Shown piece by piece: positions 51,115 through 62,007 of a stretch of 62,502 bases of DNA. The notes beneath the pieces were generated by a model, which was not told the origin of the DNA, searched no databases, and saw only the letters and a list, made by a program, of their open reading frames with translations. A program made the position numbers and the translations under genes. The stretch lies in assembly GCA_027622555.1 (NCBI GenBank), contig JAQBYJ010000022.1, forward strand, positions 1-62,502, read 5' to 3'. Every line of letters begins with the position of its first letter. The first letter of the stretch is position 1. The stretch is from Verrucomicrobiota bacterium. GTDB taxonomy: Bacteria; Verrucomicrobiota; Verrucomicrobiia; Opitutales; UBA2995.

Positions 51115-51768
51115 CTATTCAGTGTCCCAGGGCTTGAGCTCTTCAACCGTCCACATACCACGTTGCCCTGTCTGCTCCCGAGCTTCGGCAACGACCGCGG
51201 CATCCACCGGACCGGACGTGTTACCCCACTCCTGGCGAACATAGGTAAGCACATGAGCAATCTTCTCGTCATTGAGAACAGATCCCAGAGGAGCCATAAT
51301 AGAATTATACCCAGTACCTTTGACCATGATTGGACCTTGCATACCCGCCAACACAATGCGCGCCAATAATTGTGGATTCTTTGCAACCCACTCAGACTCG
51401 GCCAAAGGAGGAAATGCTCCAACCATCCCCTGTCCATTCACCTGGTGACATGCCATACAGTTTGTTTGGTAAATCTTTTTTCCTTCTTTAACAGGATCAA
51501 AAGCAGCAACTTCTCCAGCTCCAGCAGTGCCTGATCCACCGCCCAAATTAGCCATCTCACTGGCAATACTCGAAGACTCAAGATATTCATTGGAATCAAA
51601 GCCACCAGAAAATCTAGCCAGATAAATTACGGCCAGGATTATAGAAAAGACTATCGCAAGATAACCAATTGTTTCCGGTGAAATAAAAGTATTTTTATCG
51701 TTGAGTGAGACAAGATTTGAATCTTCGACCTCCTCAGATGATTTAAAATTGGATTGATCTTCGGTCAT
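51115..51768 (-). CDS. Membrane-anchored monoheme cytochrome c
   Basis: The 217-residue protein has a Ser/Glu-rich N-terminus, one transmembrane helix (YLAIVFSIILAVIYLARF), a Gly/Ala-rich linker, and a class I cytochrome c domain with the heme motif CMACHQVNGQG; the distal Met is probably in SIMAPLG. Canonical CcoP has two CxxCH motifs, so this is not a standard CcoP, although it takes the CcoP place after ccoN-like and ccoO. Its start overlaps the ccoO stop by one base (TAATG). It is the last gene of the operon and could carry electrons away from alternative complex III. Confidence 0.9.
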   Translation of the reverse strand: MTEDQSNFKSSEEVEDSNLVSLNDKNTFISPETIGYLAIVFSIILAVIYLARFSGGFDSNEYLESSSIASEMANLGGGSGTAGAGEVAAFDPVKEGKKIYQTNCMACHQVNGQGMVGAFPPLAESEWVAKNPQLLARIVLAGMQGPIMVKGTGYNSIMAPLGSVLNDEKIAHVLTYVRQEWGNTSGPVDAAVVAEAREQTGQRGMWTVEELKPWDTE

Positions 51769-52391
51769 TACTTTATCCGCTTCGATTCAGGTAAGTCATA
51801 GTCCATATTTAAACTCTGCAAGTAAGCGACTAACGCCACGGCATCATCTGTTGGAACAATTTCAAATCCTTCAGCAGGCGTGTCATTGCCTACAAGGACA
51901 AGCGCGTTTGCAGAAAGAGTACCACTAAATTCTCTCTTCTTGAAGAGAAAAGGGTACGAGGGCATATTGGAAACTTCCGATACATCGCTGGGTTTATTTA
52001 AATGGGCGAAAAACCAGGCTGCATCATGTCGAGATCCCACGTTGGAAAGATCCGGACCAATACGCTTATTTCCAAGAATGACTTGATCCTGCAATACGTA
52101 GTCACGGGCTACTGATTGTCTTGATCCCCAATCACGGCCAAAATCTCCGCCGTATCCTGGACGACGAGTTTGTTGCGTGTGGCAAACCACACAGCCGAGT
52201 TCACGATAAACTTTTTGCCCACGACCAGCGAGCCCTTCGTGACCGATGATGATAACATCCTCATCGGATACCTTAAGGCTAGTTTCAAGCTCCGATGGGC
52301 TCAACTCTTTTGCTCCTTGAAGGAGGAGGAAATACGAGGAACTTGTGATTCCGATCAATAACACAAAGAATAAGGAAGCAAAACTTTTCAT
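51768..52391 (-). CDS. ccoO: cbb3-type cytochrome c oxidase subunit II (monoheme, CcoO)
   Basis: The 207-residue protein has an N-terminal membrane anchor (FASLFFVLLIGITSSSYFLL), then YRELGCVVCHTQQTRRPGYG with one heme c motif (CVVCH), and the CcoO-specific region GNKRIGPDLSNVGSRHD leading to SNMPSYPFLF, whose Met is the expected axial ligand. All this matches CcoO of cbb3 oxidases, where it hands electrons from the cytochrome c chain to the catalytic subunit. The heme site is intact even though its CcoN-like partner has lost its metal ligands. Its start overlaps the ccoN-like stop by 4 bases (ATGA). Confidence 0.93.
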   Translation of the reverse strand: MKSFASLFFVLLIGITSSSYFLLLQGAKELSPSELETSLKVSDEDVIIIGHEGLAGRGQKVYRELGCVVCHTQQTRRPGYGGDFGRDWGSRQSVARDYVLQDQVILGNKRIGPDLSNVGSRHDAAWFFAHLNKPSDVSEVSNMPSYPFLFKKREFSGTLSANALVLVGNDTPAEGFEIVPTDDAVALVAYLQSLNMDYDLPESKRIK

Positions 52392-53830
52392 GACTCAACT
52401 CCTCCCACAGCATCCTCTTCGGCTCGCGTAAGATCCTCTATACAGGATTCAACATCGGCCCTCATTATCACTATTACGTTTAAAATCAATGCGAGGTGAC
52501 CAATTATAAGAAAAATCCATGCCATTGACCGCGCGACCATCCAATAAGAGGTGTAACGAACTATCTCCGCAAATGGAACAGCCGCATCGTTCATGGCTAC
52601 ACCTTGTTTCCAGCCACCGACGGCTAAGGGAACCACGAGCATCACAATTCCAGTGAATGCTATCCAGAAATGAGACGATATTAGAAAATCCATCGGCCAC
52701 TCTCGACCAAGAATTTTTGGCAATGCGTAATAAACGATGGCGAACATCGCCATGCTAAATACCCCGTAGAAGATGAGGAAGTGGTGAGCATCCAGGAGAA
52801 TAGTAAATTGAGAAACTTCCGCAACGCCCCTAAGAGAAAGCAACACAACGCCCACGCCAGAAATCAACAAAGCGAGTGACGCAAAACTGGTGAATAGGAG
52901 AACTCCATTCCCCACAATCTGAGAACGATTCTGCCAGAGAGTACCGAAAAAATTAATACCGGTGATCACAAAAAAGATAATCATCAACAGACTTGCTACG
53001 ATGCCGGAGGTAATCATCCATGCGGGGAATGGTCCTCCGACGAGTCGGGCGGCTCCCATCCATGTTCCAGCAAGGACAAAAACGAGGAATGCGCGCCGAG
53101 CGATTCTGTAAGCCAAAAGGCTCGTACCTAGTAGTTTGGGAATCAGGTAATATAAACCTGCAACCGCAATAGATCCAAACCAGAGCCAAATAAGATTGGA
53201 AGCAAACCAGCTGGCAACCAAGGCCTGAACTACGCCAGGAACCGGGTTCACGAACAACATGATTTGCGCGACAATCTGTATCCAGGGAAATATCAGGAAG
53301 GCGGCTAATAAAAACCATTGGGAAGCATAAAAGTCCGGGTAACTTCTGTTTTTGAAACACGCGATACCCCAGACACATACGACCAACGAAGAAAGAAATA
53401 ACGCTAAGCCGACATAGGAAGGAAGTTCCAAAAGCTCAAACGCGTTGAGATCACCCATGAAAATCCCGACAACACCGACCGTTAGTGCGAGGTTCCAAAA
53501 TACGGCGGCAATGATAAGTACCAACCTGAAACGTAATTGAGTTCCACAAAGCCGTGCCATCAACCAAAGACTAACAGCAAAAGCGATGTTACAGCCAAAG
53601 CCGTAAACAAAAGCAGCCGTGTAGACAGCTTGTACGCGTCCCACAGTTAGAAATGCCCAGCTGTTTAAAAACTCCGGATTGTGAGTTTTCCAAGACGCGA
53701 GGTATCCAAAGATTGAGGCGAATAAAAGCCACTTAAGCGCTGAAAACAAATAGACGAGAACAGGCGCTTTGGTGGAACGATCGATGGCCGCCGTTCCTGA
53801 AAGAGTTAAATTTGATTCCATAGAACTCAT
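52388..53830 (-). CDS. CcoN-like protein lacking heme and CuB ligands
   Basis: The 480 residues form about 12 membrane helices and clearly resemble cbb3 subunit I. GRVQAVYTAAFVYGFGCNIA aligns with the CcoN helix that carries a low-spin heme His, but here Tyr70 replaces it. The CuB ligands are also missing: Ser211 replaces the first His (WFASNLIWLWF region), Trp257-Met258 replace the His-His pair (LAGTWMGAARLVGGPFPAW), and the nearby cross-linking Tyr appears to be Phe251. Only five His occur in the protein (50, 349, 350, 387, 445); His349 aligns with the heme b3 ligand, and the second heme ligand position is Phe351. Oxygen reduction at a heme-copper centre therefore looks impossible. It sits between a small membrane protein and ccoO. 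Confidence 0.9.
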   Translation of the reverse strand: MSSMESNLTLSGTAAIDRSTKAPVLVYLFSALKWLLFASIFGYLASWKTHNPEFLNSWAFLTVGRVQAVYTAAFVYGFGCNIAFAVSLWLMARLCGTQLRFRLVLIIAAVFWNLALTVGVVGIFMGDLNAFELLELPSYVGLALFLSSLVVCVWGIACFKNRSYPDFYASQWFLLAAFLIFPWIQIVAQIMLFVNPVPGVVQALVASWFASNLIWLWFGSIAVAGLYYLIPKLLGTSLLAYRIARRAFLVFVLAGTWMGAARLVGGPFPAWMITSGIVASLLMIIFFVITGINFFGTLWQNRSQIVGNGVLLFTSFASLALLISGVGVVLLSLRGVAEVSQFTILLDAHHFLIFYGVFSMAMFAIVYYALPKILGREWPMDFLISSHFWIAFTGIVMLVVPLAVGGWKQGVAMNDAAVPFAEIVRYTSYWMVARSMAWIFLIIGHLALILNVIVIMRADVESCIEDLTRAEEDAVGGVES

Positions 53831-53839
53831 TTTAATTAA

Positions 53840-54139
53840 TTATTTTTTCAGCTCCTGGATTACTAGTTTTTGAGCGACTTCGGCAGGAATGCGAACGACA
53901 CCCTTTTCCTGATCGACCCACCCGTAAGTAGAAAGGACTTCGTTATCATGCGCTTTGAGTTCCGCGCCAGTTGGTGGTGCTGCTTCGTCTCTGACTTCCA
54001 CTACAGCTGGTGCATCTTCACTGTCTCCCAAGCCGTAGGCCCATAATACCAGGACAGCGAACACTGCAATCGCTACAAGAACAGCAATGATAGATGCCAA
54101 AAACGAAAATCCGTCAGGTTTGGTTGAATTATCGGCCAT
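53840..54139 (-). CDS. Small membrane protein of the act operon
   Basis: The 99 residues contain one transmembrane helix (LASIIAVLVAIAVFAVLVLW) and a soluble C-terminal part with LSTYGWVDQEKGVVRIPAEV, which I recall as typical of small proteins near respiratory clusters but cannot verify. No heme motif or metal ligand pattern is seen. It overlaps actF by 11 bases and lies 9 bases before the ccoN-like gene. It could be an accessory subunit bridging alternative complex III and the CcoNO-like pair. Confidence 0.75.
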   Translation of the reverse strand: MADNSTKPDGFSFLASIIAVLVAIAVFAVLVLWAYGLGDSEDAPAVVEVRDEAAPPTGAELKAHDNEVLSTYGWVDQEKGVVRIPAEVAQKLVIQELKK

Positions 54140-55388
54140 TGTGGTGCAGGGATTCTAAAATTCGTGGATCTTTAACCGGAATGATTTGGGACTTGCCCCA
54201 GCTTCGCATGAATGACCAGGCGCAAATTCCACCGATTCCAAGGAAGGCAGCTATATCCCAAAAAGAGATATAAAACGGATAGGAAATATACATATCGTAA
54301 TCCAAACGCTTGGAAGGAAGTATGTTGAAATATAGATCCAACATATGGAAGGAGAGTAACCAGATGCATATAAAAATCATTCGGTTCACCTTCACTTTGT
54401 TGGCGTAGAAAAGCAGGTAGATAAAAGGGAATAGGAAGTAACCAAAGATCAGACCCATACTTATCGTCCACCACGCACCTTGCTCGCGCATATTATACCA
54501 AAAGGTTTCTTCAGGAATATTTGCATTATAAATCAGGAAATACTGGGAAAAACTGATGTAAGCCCAGAACACGGTAAACGCTAACATGATACACCCCAAG
54601 TCATACATATGACCACGTTTGAAGAATCCGGTTAACGGGCCATTCTTGTATACTTGAATGATACAAACCAAGGCGGTAACCGCCAAGGCAGCCCGCATGC
54701 TTGCGGCAAAAAACCACACACCAAACATGGTTGAAAACCAGTGAAATTCAATGGACTTAATCCAGTCGATGGAGGCAAAAGTCAAAGCAAGGGCCGTAAA
54801 CATAATGCCCCATGCTGAGTGGAAAAGCAGTTTCTTACTCCAGGCAGGATTCCCATCAGCATCTTGAGCTTTGCTCAATTTGCGGAGCCTGTTTGCGAGA
54901 TAACACCAACCAACAAAATAAATAGCACACCGAACCAAAAAGGCGGTTTCGTTGAGCCACCAGGCTTTTTTCTGATAAAGCACATCATCGGCTACAGCTC
55001 TTGCATCCAACCATTTCCATATGAACCCTGAATTATCGTCGCCCATCAAAAAGCTGATGACCAGGAAAGGAACAAAAATCAGCGCCAACCAGGGAAAGAT
55101 CGAAAGACCATGTTCCAACTGACGACGAGGAATCGTGGACCATCCCGAACCAAAAACATGGTGAATCATGGTTAGCATTATCATACCCACGCCGATGCTA
55201 AGGTAGAAAATGAACATGATTAAGAGCCCATAGGCAGGACGTGGATTATGATCAGCCACACCTGAAAATACGCCGAGCAGAGTTATCGCTAAAAATACAA
55301 TTCCTCCGATAAGGAAGATTTTCGACCAGGGTTTTTTACTGGAAGATGAAGCAGTGGCAGCTCCTGCAGTTGTTACTTCGCTGTTCAT
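54129..55388 (-). CDS. actF: Alternative complex III subunit ActF
   Basis: ActF is the second large NrfD-like membrane subunit of the quinol:cytochrome c/HiPIP oxidoreductase. The 419 residues form about ten hydrophobic helices, for example IFLIGGIVFLAITLLGVFSG, YGLLIMFIFYLSIGVGMIML and LGCIMLAFTVFWAYISFSQY. The WYNMREQGAWWTISMGLIFG and FHMLDLYFNILPS segments are typical of the family. ActF does not bind hemes and is thought to take part in quinone binding or proton movement. It overlaps actE by 4 bases (ATGA) and the small membrane protein by 11. Confidence 0.93.
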   Translation of the reverse strand: MNSEVTTAGAATASSSSKKPWSKIFLIGGIVFLAITLLGVFSGVADHNPRPAYGLLIMFIFYLSIGVGMIMLTMIHHVFGSGWSTIPRRQLEHGLSIFPWLALIFVPFLVISFLMGDDNSGFIWKWLDARAVADDVLYQKKAWWLNETAFLVRCAIYFVGWCYLANRLRKLSKAQDADGNPAWSKKLLFHSAWGIMFTALALTFASIDWIKSIEFHWFSTMFGVWFFAASMRAALAVTALVCIIQVYKNGPLTGFFKRGHMYDLGCIMLAFTVFWAYISFSQYFLIYNANIPEETFWYNMREQGAWWTISMGLIFGYFLFPFIYLLFYANKVKVNRMIFICIWLLSFHMLDLYFNILPSKRLDYDMYISYPFYISFWDIAAFLGIGGICAWSFMRSWGKSQIIPVKDPRILESLHHNGR

Positions 55389-55993
55389 AGTCCCAAATCC
55401 TTTCTGTTGGCCGGCGGCACATCATTGACTGACGCATTTTGCGAACGTTGAATTACCCGCAAATAGGCAATCACGGCCCAGCGATCTTCAGCAGAAAGCT
55501 TATCACGGTAGTAACCCATAAGGCCTTTGCCATTGGTCAAGGTATTGAAAATTTCACCTTCAGCGATGTCCCGTAGACGGTCATCGTGGAAACTGGCCAC
55601 AATATTCATACCGCGCGGCTTGGTGACTCCATTGCCATCCCCCACGCCTCCGTGGCAAACGGCACAATAAATACCGTAGCGTTCTTTGCCACGATTAATC
55701 AAATCGTCAGTTACTGGCATCGGAAAGCCTCTCGCCCATTCCTCACCCTTCTTTCCGAAGTGAAGAAATTCGTCATCCTTCAAAAGACCGCGAGCAACGG
55801 TTCCCGCAATAGGAAGGCGATCCGTACGACCATCAGCAAAAAACGTACTGGTGCCCTGCGGCTTATATTTCGATTGGTCATCCATGTCTGGAAACATTTC
55901 CAAAGGTGGCTTGGTAAATGATCCTCCGCGGAATCCTAAAATGGAAACCACTGCGGCGACGGCTAATGCAAATGCGAACAGGAAATATCTCAT
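55385..55993 (-). CDS. actE: Alternative complex III cytochrome c subunit ActE
   Basis: The 202 residues comprise an N-terminal signal or anchor (MRYFLFAFALAVAAVVSILG), and a monoheme cytochrome c domain with YGIYCAVCHGGVGDGNGVT. The GEIFNTLTNGKGLMGYYRDK segment provides the distal Met region, followed by DRWAVIAYLRVIQRSQ, the class I C-terminal helix. In described complexes ActE passes electrons from the pentaheme ActA to an external carrier or oxidase. It lies 2 bases behind actD. Confidence 0.94.
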   Translation of the reverse strand: MRYFLFAFALAVAAVVSILGFRGGSFTKPPLEMFPDMDDQSKYKPQGTSTFFADGRTDRLPIAGTVARGLLKDDEFLHFGKKGEEWARGFPMPVTDDLINRGKERYGIYCAVCHGGVGDGNGVTKPRGMNIVASFHDDRLRDIAEGEIFNTLTNGKGLMGYYRDKLSAEDRWAVIAYLRVIQRSQNASVNDVPPANRKDLGL

Positions 55994-55995
55994 GA

Positions 55996-56532
55996 TTAGT
56001 CTTCCAACTCCTGTATGTTAGTTCCGCCTATTTCCTGCAGGAACGTGCGGGTTTTTTCTGCGTCATAAAGCGGGTCGGCAGCTTCAATCGTTATACGTAA
56101 AATGTCGTCTGTTGTTCCGGCAAAGTTCTTTGCCTTCATCGCCGGGTGGTAATGCCGGGGAAGCCCATTTAGAATAAACATTCCGGCGATGGTAGAAAGT
56201 GCAGCGAGAAGGATGGTGAGCTCATACATGACCGGGAATGGAAATACCGGACTAAACAAGGGTTTACCACCAACGATCAACGGGTAGTCGAAATAGTTCA
56301 TGTACCACACCAGAAACAAACCGATAATGAATCCAGTGGTTCCGCCAATGAAGGTAAAGAAAGGCACCTTGGAACGTTTCAAGCCCATGGCATCGTCCAA
56401 TCCGTGAACAGGGAAAGGGGTGAGTACATCCCAGGATTTGAATCCTTCATCACGACATTTTTCAGCCGCCTTCATCAGAATCAAAGGGTTTTCAAAATCG
56501 GCCATGAGACCGTATATTTTATTGTCCGCCAT
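55996..56532 (-). CDS. actD: Alternative complex III subunit ActD (DUF3341)
   Basis: ActD is a small accessory membrane subunit of unknown chemistry. The 178 residues carry the DUF3341 signature near the N-terminus (YGLMADFENPLILMKAAEKC, FKSWDVLTPFPVHGLDDAMG) and two membrane helices (FFTFIGGTTGFIIGLFLVWY, FPVMYELTILLAALSTIAGM). The C-terminal soluble part ends with DPLYDAEKTRTFLQEIGGTN. It is placed between actC and actE as in other act clusters. Confidence 0.94.
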   Translation of the reverse strand: MADNKIYGLMADFENPLILMKAAEKCRDEGFKSWDVLTPFPVHGLDDAMGLKRSKVPFFTFIGGTTGFIIGLFLVWYMNYFDYPLIVGGKPLFSPVFPFPVMYELTILLAALSTIAGMFILNGLPRHYHPAMKAKNFAGTTDDILRITIEAADPLYDAEKTRTFLQEIGGTNIQELED

Positions 56533-56547
56533 ACAAAAATTCTCCGA

Positions 56548-57987
56548 TTAGTGGTGTCCTCCTTCGTAGTGGTGCGGATCTGCCTGCGGGGTCACGGCCT
56601 TCACTTCAGCGATGGCAATGAGTGGTAGGAAGCGCAAGAAGAGAAGGAACAGTGTAGAGAAGACTCCAAACGTTCCGAAGAAAGTAAAAATATCGACCGC
56701 GGTCGGAGAATAGTATCCCCAACTTGAGGGTAAGAAATCTCGGGCGAGCGAAGTGACCGCGATCACGAAGCGTTCGAACCACATACCGACATTTACAAAA
56801 ATGGAGATGATCCAAACGACATGAGGTCGATGGCGGATCCACTTAAACCAAAACAACTGGGGACATATCACATTACAGGAAAACATCGTAATGTAAGCCC
56901 AGGAGTAGATACCAAAAGCTCGATTAAAGAACGCGAAAATCTCATACGGATTTGCTCCGTAGAACGCTATGAAGAATTCCATCGAGTAGGCATACCCAAC
57001 AATCGTCCCGGTTGCTAATGTGATCTTACACATGCAATCGATGTGATGTTGGGTTATCAGATCATGTAGTCCGTAAATGGCACGCAAAGGGAGCATCAAG
57101 GTTAACACCATTCCAAATCCGGAAAAGATAGCACCCGCTACAAAGTACGGTGGAAAAATGGTAGTGTGCCAACCAGGAATCAAGGCAACCGCGAAGTCGA
57201 AGGATACAATCGTATGAACCGAAAGAACCAGAGGCGTTGAAAGCCCGGCTAACAACAGGTATGCCATTTCGTAGTTGCTCCAATTGCGGTTGGAACCTCG
57301 CCAACCCATGGAGAAAATACCGTAAACGATTTTGCGAAACTTTGATTTTGCGCGATCACGCAGGGTAGCCAAATCCGGAAGCAGACCTACATACCAGAAT
57401 GCAACCGATACAGTAGCGTAAGTAGACACGGCAAAAACGTCCCAGAGAAGAGGACTTCGAAAGTTTGGCCAAATGGCATTGGCATTGGGCAAAGGGAATA
57501 ACCACCAGGCGAACCATACACGTCCAACGTGGAAAACAGGAAAGATCCCGGCACAAGCAACAGCGAAAATAGTCATCGCTTCAGCCGCGCGATTAATGGT
57601 CGTCCGCCATGGTTGTTTTAATAGACAGAGAATGGCCGAAATCAAAGTTCCTGCATGGCCGATACCAATCCAGAAAACGAAGTTTACAATGGCCCAACCC
57701 CAGTTCATGGGATTTGAAAGACCCCAAACCCCTACCCCGGTTGATACCAGATAGAAAAGACCCATCACGGTAAATGACGCCAGGGAAACGGCACAAGCGA
57801 AAGCCACCCACCACCAAACAGGAGTTTTGGCTTCCACAATGCCACATACCTTTTGGGTAATCCATCCAAAGCTGCGGTCGTTTTCGACTAACTTGGGACG
57901 AGGCAAATGCGCTGGCTTTACCTCGGCAAGTATTTCGGGCGAAGCCGGTGTTTTTAAATCCAAAGAGAATTGATCAGAAAATGCCAT
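56548..57987 (-). CDS. actC: Alternative complex III NrfD-like subunit ActC
   Basis: ActC is a ten-helix NrfD-family membrane protein that forms the quinol-binding site of alternative complex III. The 479 residues include [40 protein letters not shown] and [20 protein letters not shown], with [20 protein letters not shown] as the family signature. The cytoplasmic or periplasmic C-terminal tail ends with [11 protein letters not shown], four His in the last eight residues. It follows actB by 20 bases. Confidence 0.95.
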
Positions 57988-58006
57988 AATCTCGAAAACC
58001 TATAAA

Positions 58007-61000
58007 TTAATGACCGTTATGTCCGCCATCCTCTGCAGCGTGAGAATCCACCGCATGCTCATCGCCATGACCTTCACCATGACCATTGACAGCATTATAC
58101 TCCAAATGGCTTAGCGGATTGTCATAGTAATCCGGCATGAGCGGATTCGGGTTACGTAACTTAGCAAGGTAAGTAGTGCGAGGACGTGTGTTGAGATAAC
58201 CCAACACTCCATAATCTCGATTAGATACCTTCAACTTGGAAACTTCTGATTCTGGATCGGAAACATCACCAAAAACAATCGCACCTGCAGGACAGACCTG
58301 TTGACAGGCAGTTTTGATGGTTCCGTCTGGAACTTTTACATTATCGGAATTGCGGGCTTCAACCTTTTGGTCAATCTTCGCCGCCTGGATTCTTTGAGTG
58401 CAATAGGTGCACTTTTCCATAACACCACGCATACGAACCGAAACTTCCGGGTTCTTGGACATCATCTTCAACTCGTCCATTCCACCAGGTCCGAGGGGAC
58501 CTTCGTAAACGCTGTCCATTTCGCGATCATTCCAATCGAAGAAATTGAAGCGACGAACTTTGTATGGACAGTTGTTGGCACAATATCGGGTTCCAACACA
58601 ACGGTTGTAGGCCATGACATTCAGTCCTTCATCATCGTGAACGGTTGCATTAACCGGGCAGACAGATTCACAAGGTGCCATTTCGCAATGCTGACAAGTC
58701 ATCGGCTGAAGTGAAACCTGTGGGTTGGCTGGGATATCGTTGGTATCACGACCTGGACCGGCTGAGTAATAACGATCCAAACGAATCCAGTGCATCTCAC
58801 GACCACGCTTCACCTGATCGCGTCCAACAACGGGAATATTATTCTCCGATTGGCAAGCGATGACGCAGGCATTACAGCCAGTGCAAGTATTGAGGTCGAT
58901 TGACATACCCCACTGGTGAGTGCCTGTAAATTCCGGGGTGACGTAAGCCGAATTACCACGATTCGCTTCGCCGGCAACAATCAGTTTTTGCAGTGGTACT
59001 GTGTCGCGACGATTTCCGCCATTCGCATCAAGTCCTAACACCGGGGGAGAGTGAGACTCCATGCCCATGTGGTCTACGAAGTCAGGATGCTCTTTATAAA
59101 AATCGAGGTTGGCTTCACGAATAATCGCACGACCTTCCATGGACCAATGCTCCTGGGTATCGGCAAGTTCTTGAATGCCGCCCGCTAATTTGGCTGTCGC
59201 ACCTGAAATCGAAGAAAGTCCGGTAGATGTACGTAACGTGTAAGCATTGAAGCCGCTGCCTTCACCCACATTACCGGTGACGGTGCGACCGTAACCTAAT
59301 GAAACAACTATGGTGCTGTCAGGTAAGCCCGGTTGAACATGTGCGGGCCCCCTCAAGGTTTTGCCGCCAACAGATACTTCAATGATGTGGCCTTGCTCCT
59401 TACCTCGCTTGTGAGCGTTCGGGTTTTTACTAACCACTTTAATCAAAGTGTTACCAGCAATCACTCCAAGCTCTTGGCCCAATTTCGGGCTGATCAGGAA
59501 AGCGTTATCCCAGGTAAGCTTCGTTACGGGATCAGGACACTCCTGTAACCAACCGTTGTTGTTGAACCGTCCGTCATCGAGACTTGGATCCGCTATGAAG
59601 CGAACTTCCAGGTTTGATGAAGAAAGCTTGGATGCTCTGATTCCAGCGGACTGAAGCAAATTGGTAATAGCGTTTACATCCAACTTTACTTTTACGCTGT
59701 CGCTGGTTGTTCCGGCCCAGAAACCATCGTGTAGGAATTTCTCAAAATCTTTCTGAGAACCACTTAACGATTCGGTAACCGCATCAAATACAATCGTATA
59801 TCCTTCCTTAGGCTCACCGTTAATAATGACCTCAAGCACTTCATGTTCAGTGAGTCCTTGGAAAAGAGGGAGGATCATCGGCTGAATCGCCAACACCGTG
59901 CCGTCAAAAGCAACTGCGTCGCCCCAACTTTCGAGGAAGTGCGCGGCGTTGATATGGCAGTCAGACTTTTCGGACGTTTCATCAAAGTATTCACCTAAAC
60001 GGACTACTTCACTGACTTTATCCTGAAGCTTGGACCACTCCAAATCGACGGGCGCGTTGTAAACAGGATTACCACCCAAAACCACCAGAGTATCAACATA
60101 ATCACTGCTTATAGCCTTGGCCAATTCGCTGATCGATTTTGCATTACTTTCGGGAATCTTAACGTATTTTACGGTAGCACCCTGAGCTTTGAGCACTTCG
60201 TTCATTGCAATGACAAGTGCGTGAACAGCCTGAGGCTGATGCGGTCCTGCAACGACCAAGGAGTGGCCAGCGTGTGCGAATAAATCCTTGGCACATTCCT
60301 CGATCCAATGAGGATCCACATCAAGTCCCTCACCCGATGCTTTAAGCGCTGAAATTGAGTCAGCATTCAAACCCTGAGCTTCAAATATTTCGGCAGCAAT
60401 CAGCGCAGTGAGTGCTGGAATGTCACTGGATGCGATACGCAAACGGTGATCAGCCATACCTCCAGTGATCGAGTAATAGGACTCCGCGGCGTAGAGCCGG
60501 TTCATTGAAGTATGGTCGTCTTCCACCTTGCGGGCTTTAGTAAAATCGCGGGTGTAAGCCAGGTGGTTAGGATCACTGTAAAGGAAATCGGCTTCTAAAG
60601 AAAGAACCCGATCAGCTTTTGAAAAATCATAAACGGCGCGAACAGACTCACCAAATGCTATGGCTGCAGCTTTATCAGGATTGGAAGTATCGATAGCATC
60701 GTACTCCGCCCAAATCGCTTTTGGAAGTTTTGCTTTTAGCTGCTTTAGATGAGCGGCTCGAGTCAAAGAAGGAACACCTTCGGCAAGAAACGCTAACCCT
60801 TCACCACCGTTTTTGGCGTATTTTTTTGAAATGGCTACCAAATGCTCGGTACGCTGATCCTCGGTTAAGGTACGACCTCCCTGAACTGTTTTCTTGGAAC
60901 GAGATGGGTCGTAAAGATCCAGAATTGCCGCTTGGGCATACTGATTCGTGCTACCCTGCGTGCTTTCAACCAGGTTATTTCCTTCCAGTTTAGTCGGGCG

Positions 61001-61357
61001 GCCTTCGTTCGTTTCGGCAATCAACGCTATCGGATCGTTCCGATGCGGCATGGCGGACGCATAGTATAAAGGCTTACCGTGTACAATTTCTTCAGGCTGC
61101 TGACTGAAAGGCATGATGTACTTTTCAGGGCGGCGACAACCGGTTAGTCCGACACCGGCAAAAGCGAAAGATGCAGACATCACCTTCATGAATTGACGAC
61201 GATTTACGCCATCCAATTCTGATGCGCCCTCAGGGAATTCCCGGTGCAGGTAGTTTTTGAATCCTTCGGTCTCAGCCAACTCATCCAGGCTTTTCCAGTA
61301 ATGAGGACCTTTGAGGTCAGAATCCGAAGGTTCGGGATGTTTAAGAAATTTTTTCAT
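58007..61357 (-). CDS. actB: Alternative complex III iron-sulfur subunit ActB
   Basis: ActB couples a molybdopterin-oxidoreductase-like domain, which lacks molybdenum in this family, with a four-cluster ferredoxin domain. The start at 61357 gives 1116 residues and makes an ATGA overlap with actA; Mets upstream at 61366 and 61399 are possible. A Tat signal with lipobox ([20 protein letters not shown], then TGC) sends it across the membrane. The C-terminal part carries cysteine motifs [42 protein letters not shown] and CTYC...CQQVCPAG, fitting Fe-S clusters. Six His lie in the last 24 residues (HGEGHGDEH... onward). Confidence 0.95.
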
Positions 61358-62007
61358 CGGTGACATCCTGAGCAGCTGGTGGGTGGATTTACTTTCCAAT
61401 GCTCTTTCATTTCATTTCCATCTTTCAATTGCTGCTCCTTGCTTTCCGGATGCCAGTCGAGGTCAAACACTTTGTCCAGCGGACGAATTCTTTCCTCCGG
61501 GTTGCGATGGCATTCGAGACAGAAAGCCATGCTAAATGACATTTCATGTCGGACTTCATCCATCTCATTAACCTGTCCGTGACACTCGTAACAGCTGATA
61601 CCGCGGTTTACGTGAACGGAATGATCGAAATAAACGTAGTCAGGGGCCTTGTGCACTTTAACCCAGGGAATGGCCTCACCGCTAGCAAAGCTGTCGCGAA
61701 CTGGCTGAAGCTTTTCGCTGAGTGGCAGCACCTGATTGTGGCAATTCATACAAGTACTAGTAGATGGCACGTTTGAGTGGCCGGACTTTTCCACTTGGCT
61801 ATGGCAATAACGGCAATCAATTCCCAACTCTCCAGCATGGAGGGAGTGCTCAAAAGCAACTGGCTGAATCGGTTGATAACCCACACGTGAGTATTTGGGA
61901 GTCAAATAATAGTTGAAACCCGCCGTCACCGTTGCACCCAACAATAATAGTGCGATCACTATCCTGATAGGTGCTTTGTTGGCTTCTTTCGAAAAAATCG
62001 TAGACAT
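61354..62007 (-). CDS. actA: Alternative complex III multiheme cytochrome ActA
   Basis: ActA is the pentaheme cytochrome c of alternative complex III. The 217 residues have an N-terminal membrane helix (IRIVIALLLLGATVTAGFNY), then five CxxCH heme motifs: CRYCH, CMNCH, CYECH, CLECH and CSGCH, the last at the very C-terminus. Its stop overlaps the actB ATG (ATGA). It is the first gene of a ten-gene minus operon (actA to the terminal cytochrome c). A signal-anchored topology with the hemes in the periplasm is expected. Confidence 0.96.
   Translation of the reverse strand: MSTIFSKEANKAPIRIVIALLLLGATVTAGFNYYLTPKYSRVGYQPIQPVAFEHSLHAGELGIDCRYCHSQVEKSGHSNVPSTSTCMNCHNQVLPLSEKLQPVRDSFASGEAIPWVKVHKAPDYVYFDHSVHVNRGISCYECHGQVNEMDEVRHEMSFSMAFCLECHRNPEERIRPLDKVFDLDWHPESKEQQLKDGNEMKEHWKVNPPTSCSGCHR

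Follow-up and report, generated by a model that had tools for sequence, protein, structure and literature searches.

What is a cbb3-type oxidase subunit I doing without its metal ligands among the genes of alternative complex III (ACIII)? A gene for such a protein, CcoN*, lies in the window, by which we mean the whole 62,502-nucleotide stretch of Verrucomicrobiota DNA analysed. The original prediction held that the protein had lost its heme and copper ligands inside an ACIII operon. The setting is as predicted, with actA–F at 54129–62007, and the gene order is actA-B-C-D-E-F, Sml, ccoN*, ccoO, cycM:

61354–62007, minus strand: ActA, pentaheme cytochrome c (five CxxCH motifs).
58007–61399, minus strand: ActB, molybdopterin-like and iron-sulfur subunit (profile match).
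56548–57987, minus strand: ActC, NrfD-like quinol-site subunit (profile match).
55996–56532, minus strand: ActD (PF11821, 214 bits).
55385–55993, minus strand: ActE, monoheme cytochrome c (profile match, one CxxCH).
54129–55388, minus strand: ActF, ACIII membrane subunit (without a Pfam match; assigned from its place in the operon and its similarity across loci).
53840–54139, minus strand: Sml, 99 residues, one transmembrane (TM) helix, YGWVDxxxGVVRIP motif, found here in most loci.
52388–53830, minus strand: CcoN*, ligand-free cbb3 subunit I homologue, 480 residues, 12-TM CcoN fold (Pfam/NCBIfam, alignment, AlphaFold).
51768–52391, minus strand: CcoO/FixO-type membrane-anchored monoheme cytochrome c (CVVCH, SNMPSYP).
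51115–51768, minus strand: CycM, one N-terminal TM helix, a linker and one cytochrome c domain (CMACH).

The actABCDEF set is present with its heme c, iron-sulfur and NrfD-like subunits; ActA has five CxxCH motifs and ActE, CcoO and CycM one each. Neither Sml of the window nor its homologues match a Pfam or NCBIfam family. As had been claimed, CcoO keeps its heme c motif and its Met ligand and is followed by a single-TM monoheme cytochrome; this protein, CycM, is probably a tethered electron carrier.

CcoN* matches Pfam COX1 (PF00115) with 145 bits and scores 84.5 bits against TIGR00780 (ccoN), below the equivalog cut-off of 583. Its best PDB matches are CcoN proteins. An AlphaFold model made from 59 sequences of the window and its relatives (pLDDT 92.9) has all the membrane helices and superposes on CcoN, its best structural match, over 444 residues (Z 49.7, r.m.s.d. 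1.7). Site residues were mapped by aligning CcoN* with Pseudomonas stutzeri CcoN (3mk7), both directly and together with 170 relatives:

53621–53623, minus strand: codon of Tyr70, which replaces the low-spin heme ligand H60.
53198–53200, minus strand: codon of Ser211, which replaces the CuB ligand H207.
53066–53068, minus strand: codon of Gly255, which replaces the cross-linked active-site Tyr251.
53045–53050, minus strand: codons of Ala261 and Arg262, which replace the CuB ligands H257 and H258.
52784–52786, minus strand: codon of His349, the retained equivalent of the heme b3 proximal ligand H345.
52778–52780, minus strand: codon of Phe351, which replaces the low-spin heme ligand H347.

One of the six metal-ligand histidines is kept (His349) and the active-site Tyr is gone. 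Neither member of the low-spin heme b pair is present, and none of the three CuB histidines is; at the position of His349 the sister genus has Arg. The protein contains five histidines in all (50, 349, 350, 387 and 445), the number originally counted. The earlier assignments of Tyr70, Ser211, His349 and Phe351 agree with the alignment to 3mk7 and the relatives. Trp257 and Met258, which had been named as CuB positions, were a slip into P. stutzeri numbering, the aligned residues being Ala261 and Arg262. CcoN* has kept its fold and lost its metal site.

The family to which CcoN* belongs is Verrucomicrobiota-wide and is encoded directly after actABCDEF. Relatives were taken from the window's order and phylum and from named genomes (Opitutales, Puniceicoccaceae, Coraliomargarita, Chthoniobacterales, Pedosphaera and others), giving 170 distinct CcoN once duplicates and outgroups were removed. 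Nearly all the genomes, which are species representatives and include many metagenome-assembled ones whose contigs may be misbinned, are labelled Verrucomicrobiota; L042 and L103 carry Omnitrophota and Acidobacteriota labels that are doubtful. All seven site residues (six His and the Tyr) are kept in 84 of the 170 proteins. Several or all are gone in the remaining 86, which show 60 residue patterns in intact frames. Loss of a single site residue occurs in no member, so the split is all or none. Together with the alignment these 86 distinct ligand-lost relatives bear out, far beyond chance, the loss proposed for the protein in the window. The original prediction asked whether ligand-free relatives always lie beside act genes: ActF is directly upstream of ccoN at 83 of the 86 ligand-lost loci, and the other three loci begin no more than 800 bp from the end of a contig. 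The operon is thus conserved with an intact site and without one.

Nine members keep both low-spin His with no CuB or heme b3 His (pattern HNAQRYH and similar). These act-linked proteins (L091, L094, L098, L105, L107, L112, L114, L176 and L179) have Asn, Gln or Arg at the CuB positions and Tyr in place of the heme b3 ligand. Since the low-spin pair could hold one heme b, such members may be more than a passive scaffold and possibly represent a single-heme b form. Several loci differ in their surroundings. Two ligand-intact CcoNO, L084 and L149, have no act genes despite long flanks, and L149 occurs in a genome (G024) alongside the ligand-free, act-linked L118. In a genome of the methanotroph family, ActC and ActD share one reading frame (L193, 9665–11701), which suggests a gene fusion, and an extra CycM-like cytochrome is encoded between ActF and ligand-free CcoN at L150, L153, L180, L184, L189–L191, L194 and L196.

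The number of losses differs with the gene from which it is read. A single ancient loss, giving one ligand-free clade, was rejected by the AU test on ActC (P=1.6e-48), as was one ligand-free clade on CcoN itself (P=1.8e-51, 90 pocket columns removed, mixture model). The ActC tree implies 18 changes over 133 loci, 13 over 56 loci with a mixture model, and 19–20 losses where regain is forbidden; the ActF and ActB trees imply 16 and 13 changes. CcoN trees built without the site columns give 4–5, and the gap between these and the trees of neighbouring genes could arise if long-branch attraction draws ligand-free CcoN together, or if ccoN was exchanged on its own. It is implausible that seven site residues were regained, hence loss was repeated: the trees point to at least 4–5 independent losses and perhaps nearly 20, the number being uncertain.

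Loss of the ligands is accompanied by loss of a second small gene, that for CcoS/FixS, whose place at intact loci is between Sml and ccoN. In Rhodobacter, biogenesis mutants without CcoS still assemble the whole cbb3 oxidase, but it is inactive (PMC5742617). Using a model trained on half of the intact loci, we found ccoS adjoining ccoN at 79 of 79 intact loci, including 44 of 44 held out, and at 2 of 83 ligand-lost loci. The two exceptions (L057 and L171) are visibly decayed copies between ActF and CcoN that look like genes caught mid-loss. An independent Pfam FixS search over the window's order agrees with this pattern, and 8–9 of 9 phylogenetically independent pairs are concordant for ccoS and ligand state (P=0.004–0.008). 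In the window the gap from Sml to ccoN* is only 9 bp, so ccoS is absent there, and FixS has no match in the window's genome.

The partner cytochromes are kept. CcoO has its CxxCH at 86 of 86 ligand-lost and 81 of 81 intact loci, and CycM at 81 of 82 and 75 of 75, the one exception being masked by N. Pairs of ligand-lost CcoN have dN/dS of 0.04–0.29. Retention of heme c in the partners together with these ratios argues that the ligand-lost loci encode functional proteins, and the sequences indicate that ligand-free CcoN has a function other than redox chemistry at the heme-copper site.

The original prediction also called for a genuine ccoN or coxA to be sought in the same genome. We found no ligand-intact ccoN and no bd oxidase there; it has one copy of ACIII and, on another contig and not adjoining act, an A-type aa3 operon. 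The window's genome also carries an eNOR-like COX1 cluster (contig C6; also loci L002, L004, L252 and L257), whose COX1 homologue has GHQSQQ where Tyr is usual. Its further genes encode a CuA-like subunit, a Sco-like protein, a 710-residue cytochrome b frame and a second COX1-like protein of 481 residues with APHF in place of HH. Another A-type or cbb3 subunit I was found in 32 of 34 ligand-free Opitutales genomes. Two drafts that are 91% and 88% complete (G037 and G085) have ligand-free CcoN and no other A-type or cbb3 oxidase that we could find. In two genomes of 1.3–1.7 Mb that are 98–99% complete (G010, locus L116; G079, locus L035), COX1 matches nothing but an intact ACIII-linked CcoN.

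In other orders the neighbouring genes extend to an oxidase. At 24 loci an A-type CoxA follows downstream, in the order Act-CcoN*-CcoO-CycM-(CoxB)-CoxA, and CcoN is ligand-free at 22 of them; the window's own order has no such adjacency. Genomes bearing pmoA show the Act-CcoN*-CcoO-CycM-CoxA order too, and there CcoN has the pattern SESSHFV and no catalytic site. These genomes were assigned to methanotrophs by pmoA, family membership and a nos insertion. In one of them a nos operon (NosZ, NosD and others) lies between actF and Sml (L250, 9230–16140), matching the description of Methylacidiphilum caldifontis IT6, in which a nos operon sits in the act cluster and the neighbours are annotated as cbb3- and aa3-type oxidases (PMC11102522). 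High O2 affinity in Methylacidiphilum has been linked to the cbb3 oxidase beside ACIII (PMC6688271), and the genes that follow ActABCDEF in an isolate of Opitutales were listed as caa3 (PMC13274419).

On the sequence evidence we consider it probable that CcoN* is a pseudo-oxidase platform, one that holds CcoO and the tethered cytochrome while electrons pass from ACIII to a separate aa3 oxidase. Gene order and the intact members show that the ancestral state in this part of Verrucomicrobiota was an ACIII-linked cbb3-type oxidase, encoded as ActABCDEF-Sml-CcoS-CcoN-CcoO-CycM. In several lineages, including the window's, CcoN lost the residues that bind heme b, heme b3 and CuB, and CcoS was lost with them. 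Purifying selection would have preserved the ligand-free protein as a membrane platform for CcoO, and probably CycM, on ACIII. Electrons would run from menaquinol through ACIII (ActC/ActB, pentaheme ActA, ActE) to the heme c of CcoO or CycM, and from there to CuA of a separate A-type aa3 oxidase. In other orders the genes of the candidate aa3 partner follow downstream in the act cluster; in the window's genome they lie elsewhere. Since the aa3 operon does not adjoin act in the window's order, the partner is a presumed one there. A dead oxidase would thus have become a structural connector in a III–IV assembly, O2 reduction being taken over by another enzyme. The original prediction's idea that CcoN* serves as a scaffold, or as an adaptor joining ACIII to a separate oxidase, is strongly reinforced by the recurrent loss, the loss of ccoS, the retained cytochromes c, the purifying selection and the gene order running on to CoxA. 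For the phylum as a whole we lean slightly towards dead C-type oxidases having repeatedly become electron-transfer bridges from ACIII to A-type oxidases, with some lineages perhaps keeping the low-spin heme b.

Alternatively, CcoO and CycM on CcoN* might form an electron-output hub not dedicated to aa3 and feed several periplasmic acceptors such as NO and N2O reductases or peroxidases. The eNOR-like cluster of the window's genome and the nos operon inside the act cluster of a pmoA-bearing genome (cf. PMC11102522) are consistent with this. We nonetheless consider it improbable, for no such acceptor is consistently linked and the gene that recurs downstream is that of A-type CoxA. Co-location with aa3 genes would suit a factor that acts transiently in the assembly or biogenesis of ACIII or aa3 and is no subunit of either, and pseudo-subunits can come to serve as chaperones. 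Such a role is quite improbable, since the heme c of CcoO and CycM, needless for mere assembly, is kept in essentially every case, and the intact forms resemble oxidase subunits.

That CcoN* pumps protons or binds quinol without hemes is very unlikely. All the membrane helices are kept, as befits such a module, but the K-pathway residues S240, Y251 and Y317, which 100% of intact members have, have mostly given way to other residues in ligand-free ones. They belong to some 70 positions, the ligands included, that are conserved in the former and relaxed in the latter. The quinol- or proton-handling module of the original prediction is accordingly unsupported. No more credible is a functionless relic in decay. 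Ligand-free CcoN does evolve faster than ActC and has long branches in the CcoN tree, but its frames are intact throughout, 67 non-pocket columns are conserved in intact and ligand-free forms alike, and ligand loss is common to whole families; the dN/dS values also speak against decay and rule out a pseudogene. Least credible is that CcoN* still works as a heme-copper oxidase whose ligands have moved: although His349 and His350 are present and some members keep 1–4 ligand His, CcoN* has only five His, the sister genus has Arg at 349, ligand-lost members share no compensating conserved His, none lacks a single site residue only, and ccoS is gone.

The pseudo-oxidase platform, if correct, bears on how such genes are read. 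A heme-copper oxidase subunit I is usually taken to mean that an organism can respire oxygen, and about half of this common family, although annotated in that way, cannot do so with this protein. Published Methylacidiphilum physiology rests on the cbb3 reading (PMC6688271), and the counterpart in pmoA-bearing genomes is without the site. The CcoN family would also be a case of an enzyme core repeatedly converted to a non-enzyme role, and its natural series of intact, half-lost and lost sites offers a way into electron handover from ACIII to the oxidase, which is an open question (PMC8552683). The original prediction suggested an undescribed assembly. This stands in part: PMC8498564 (citing Refojo 2010) already describes a C-type oxidase neighbouring ACIII in Opitutaceae and in verrucomicrobial methanotrophs, whereas for ligand-free CcoN or pseudo-oxidases, and so for loss of the active site, we found no report in the openly searchable literature. 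What is new is the recurrent dead oxidase in the ACIII cluster; ACIII-oxidase gene clusters were known.

Compared with the cbb3 oxidase of P. stutzeri (3mk7), CcoN* has the same fold (Z 49.7, 21% identity) and likewise a CcoO partner with heme c. It differs in lacking the low-spin and CuB ligands and the active-site Tyr, and the window has no ccoS and a monoheme CycM in place of the diheme CcoP. The ACIII-linked C-type oxidases of Opitutaceae and methanotrophs share the arrangement of ACIII followed by C-type oxidase genes (PMC8498564, PMC6688271, PMC11102522). Those papers assume a working oxidase, whereas in the methanotroph copies studied here (SESSHFV) the site is gone. In the ACIII-aa3 supercomplex of Flavobacterium johnsoniae, ACIII similarly feeds an A-type oxidase through c hemes. 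There the link is the sixth, mobile heme domain of ActA (PMC8552683 and the structure cited in it); the window instead has a five-heme ActA plus CcoN*, CcoO and CycM, whose proposed relay to aa3 would resemble that sixth heme. Finally, the bc1-cbb3 supercomplex with cytochrome cy (PMC7876108) also joins complexes III and IV through a membrane-tethered cytochrome c, although its complex III is bc1 and its CcoN is active.
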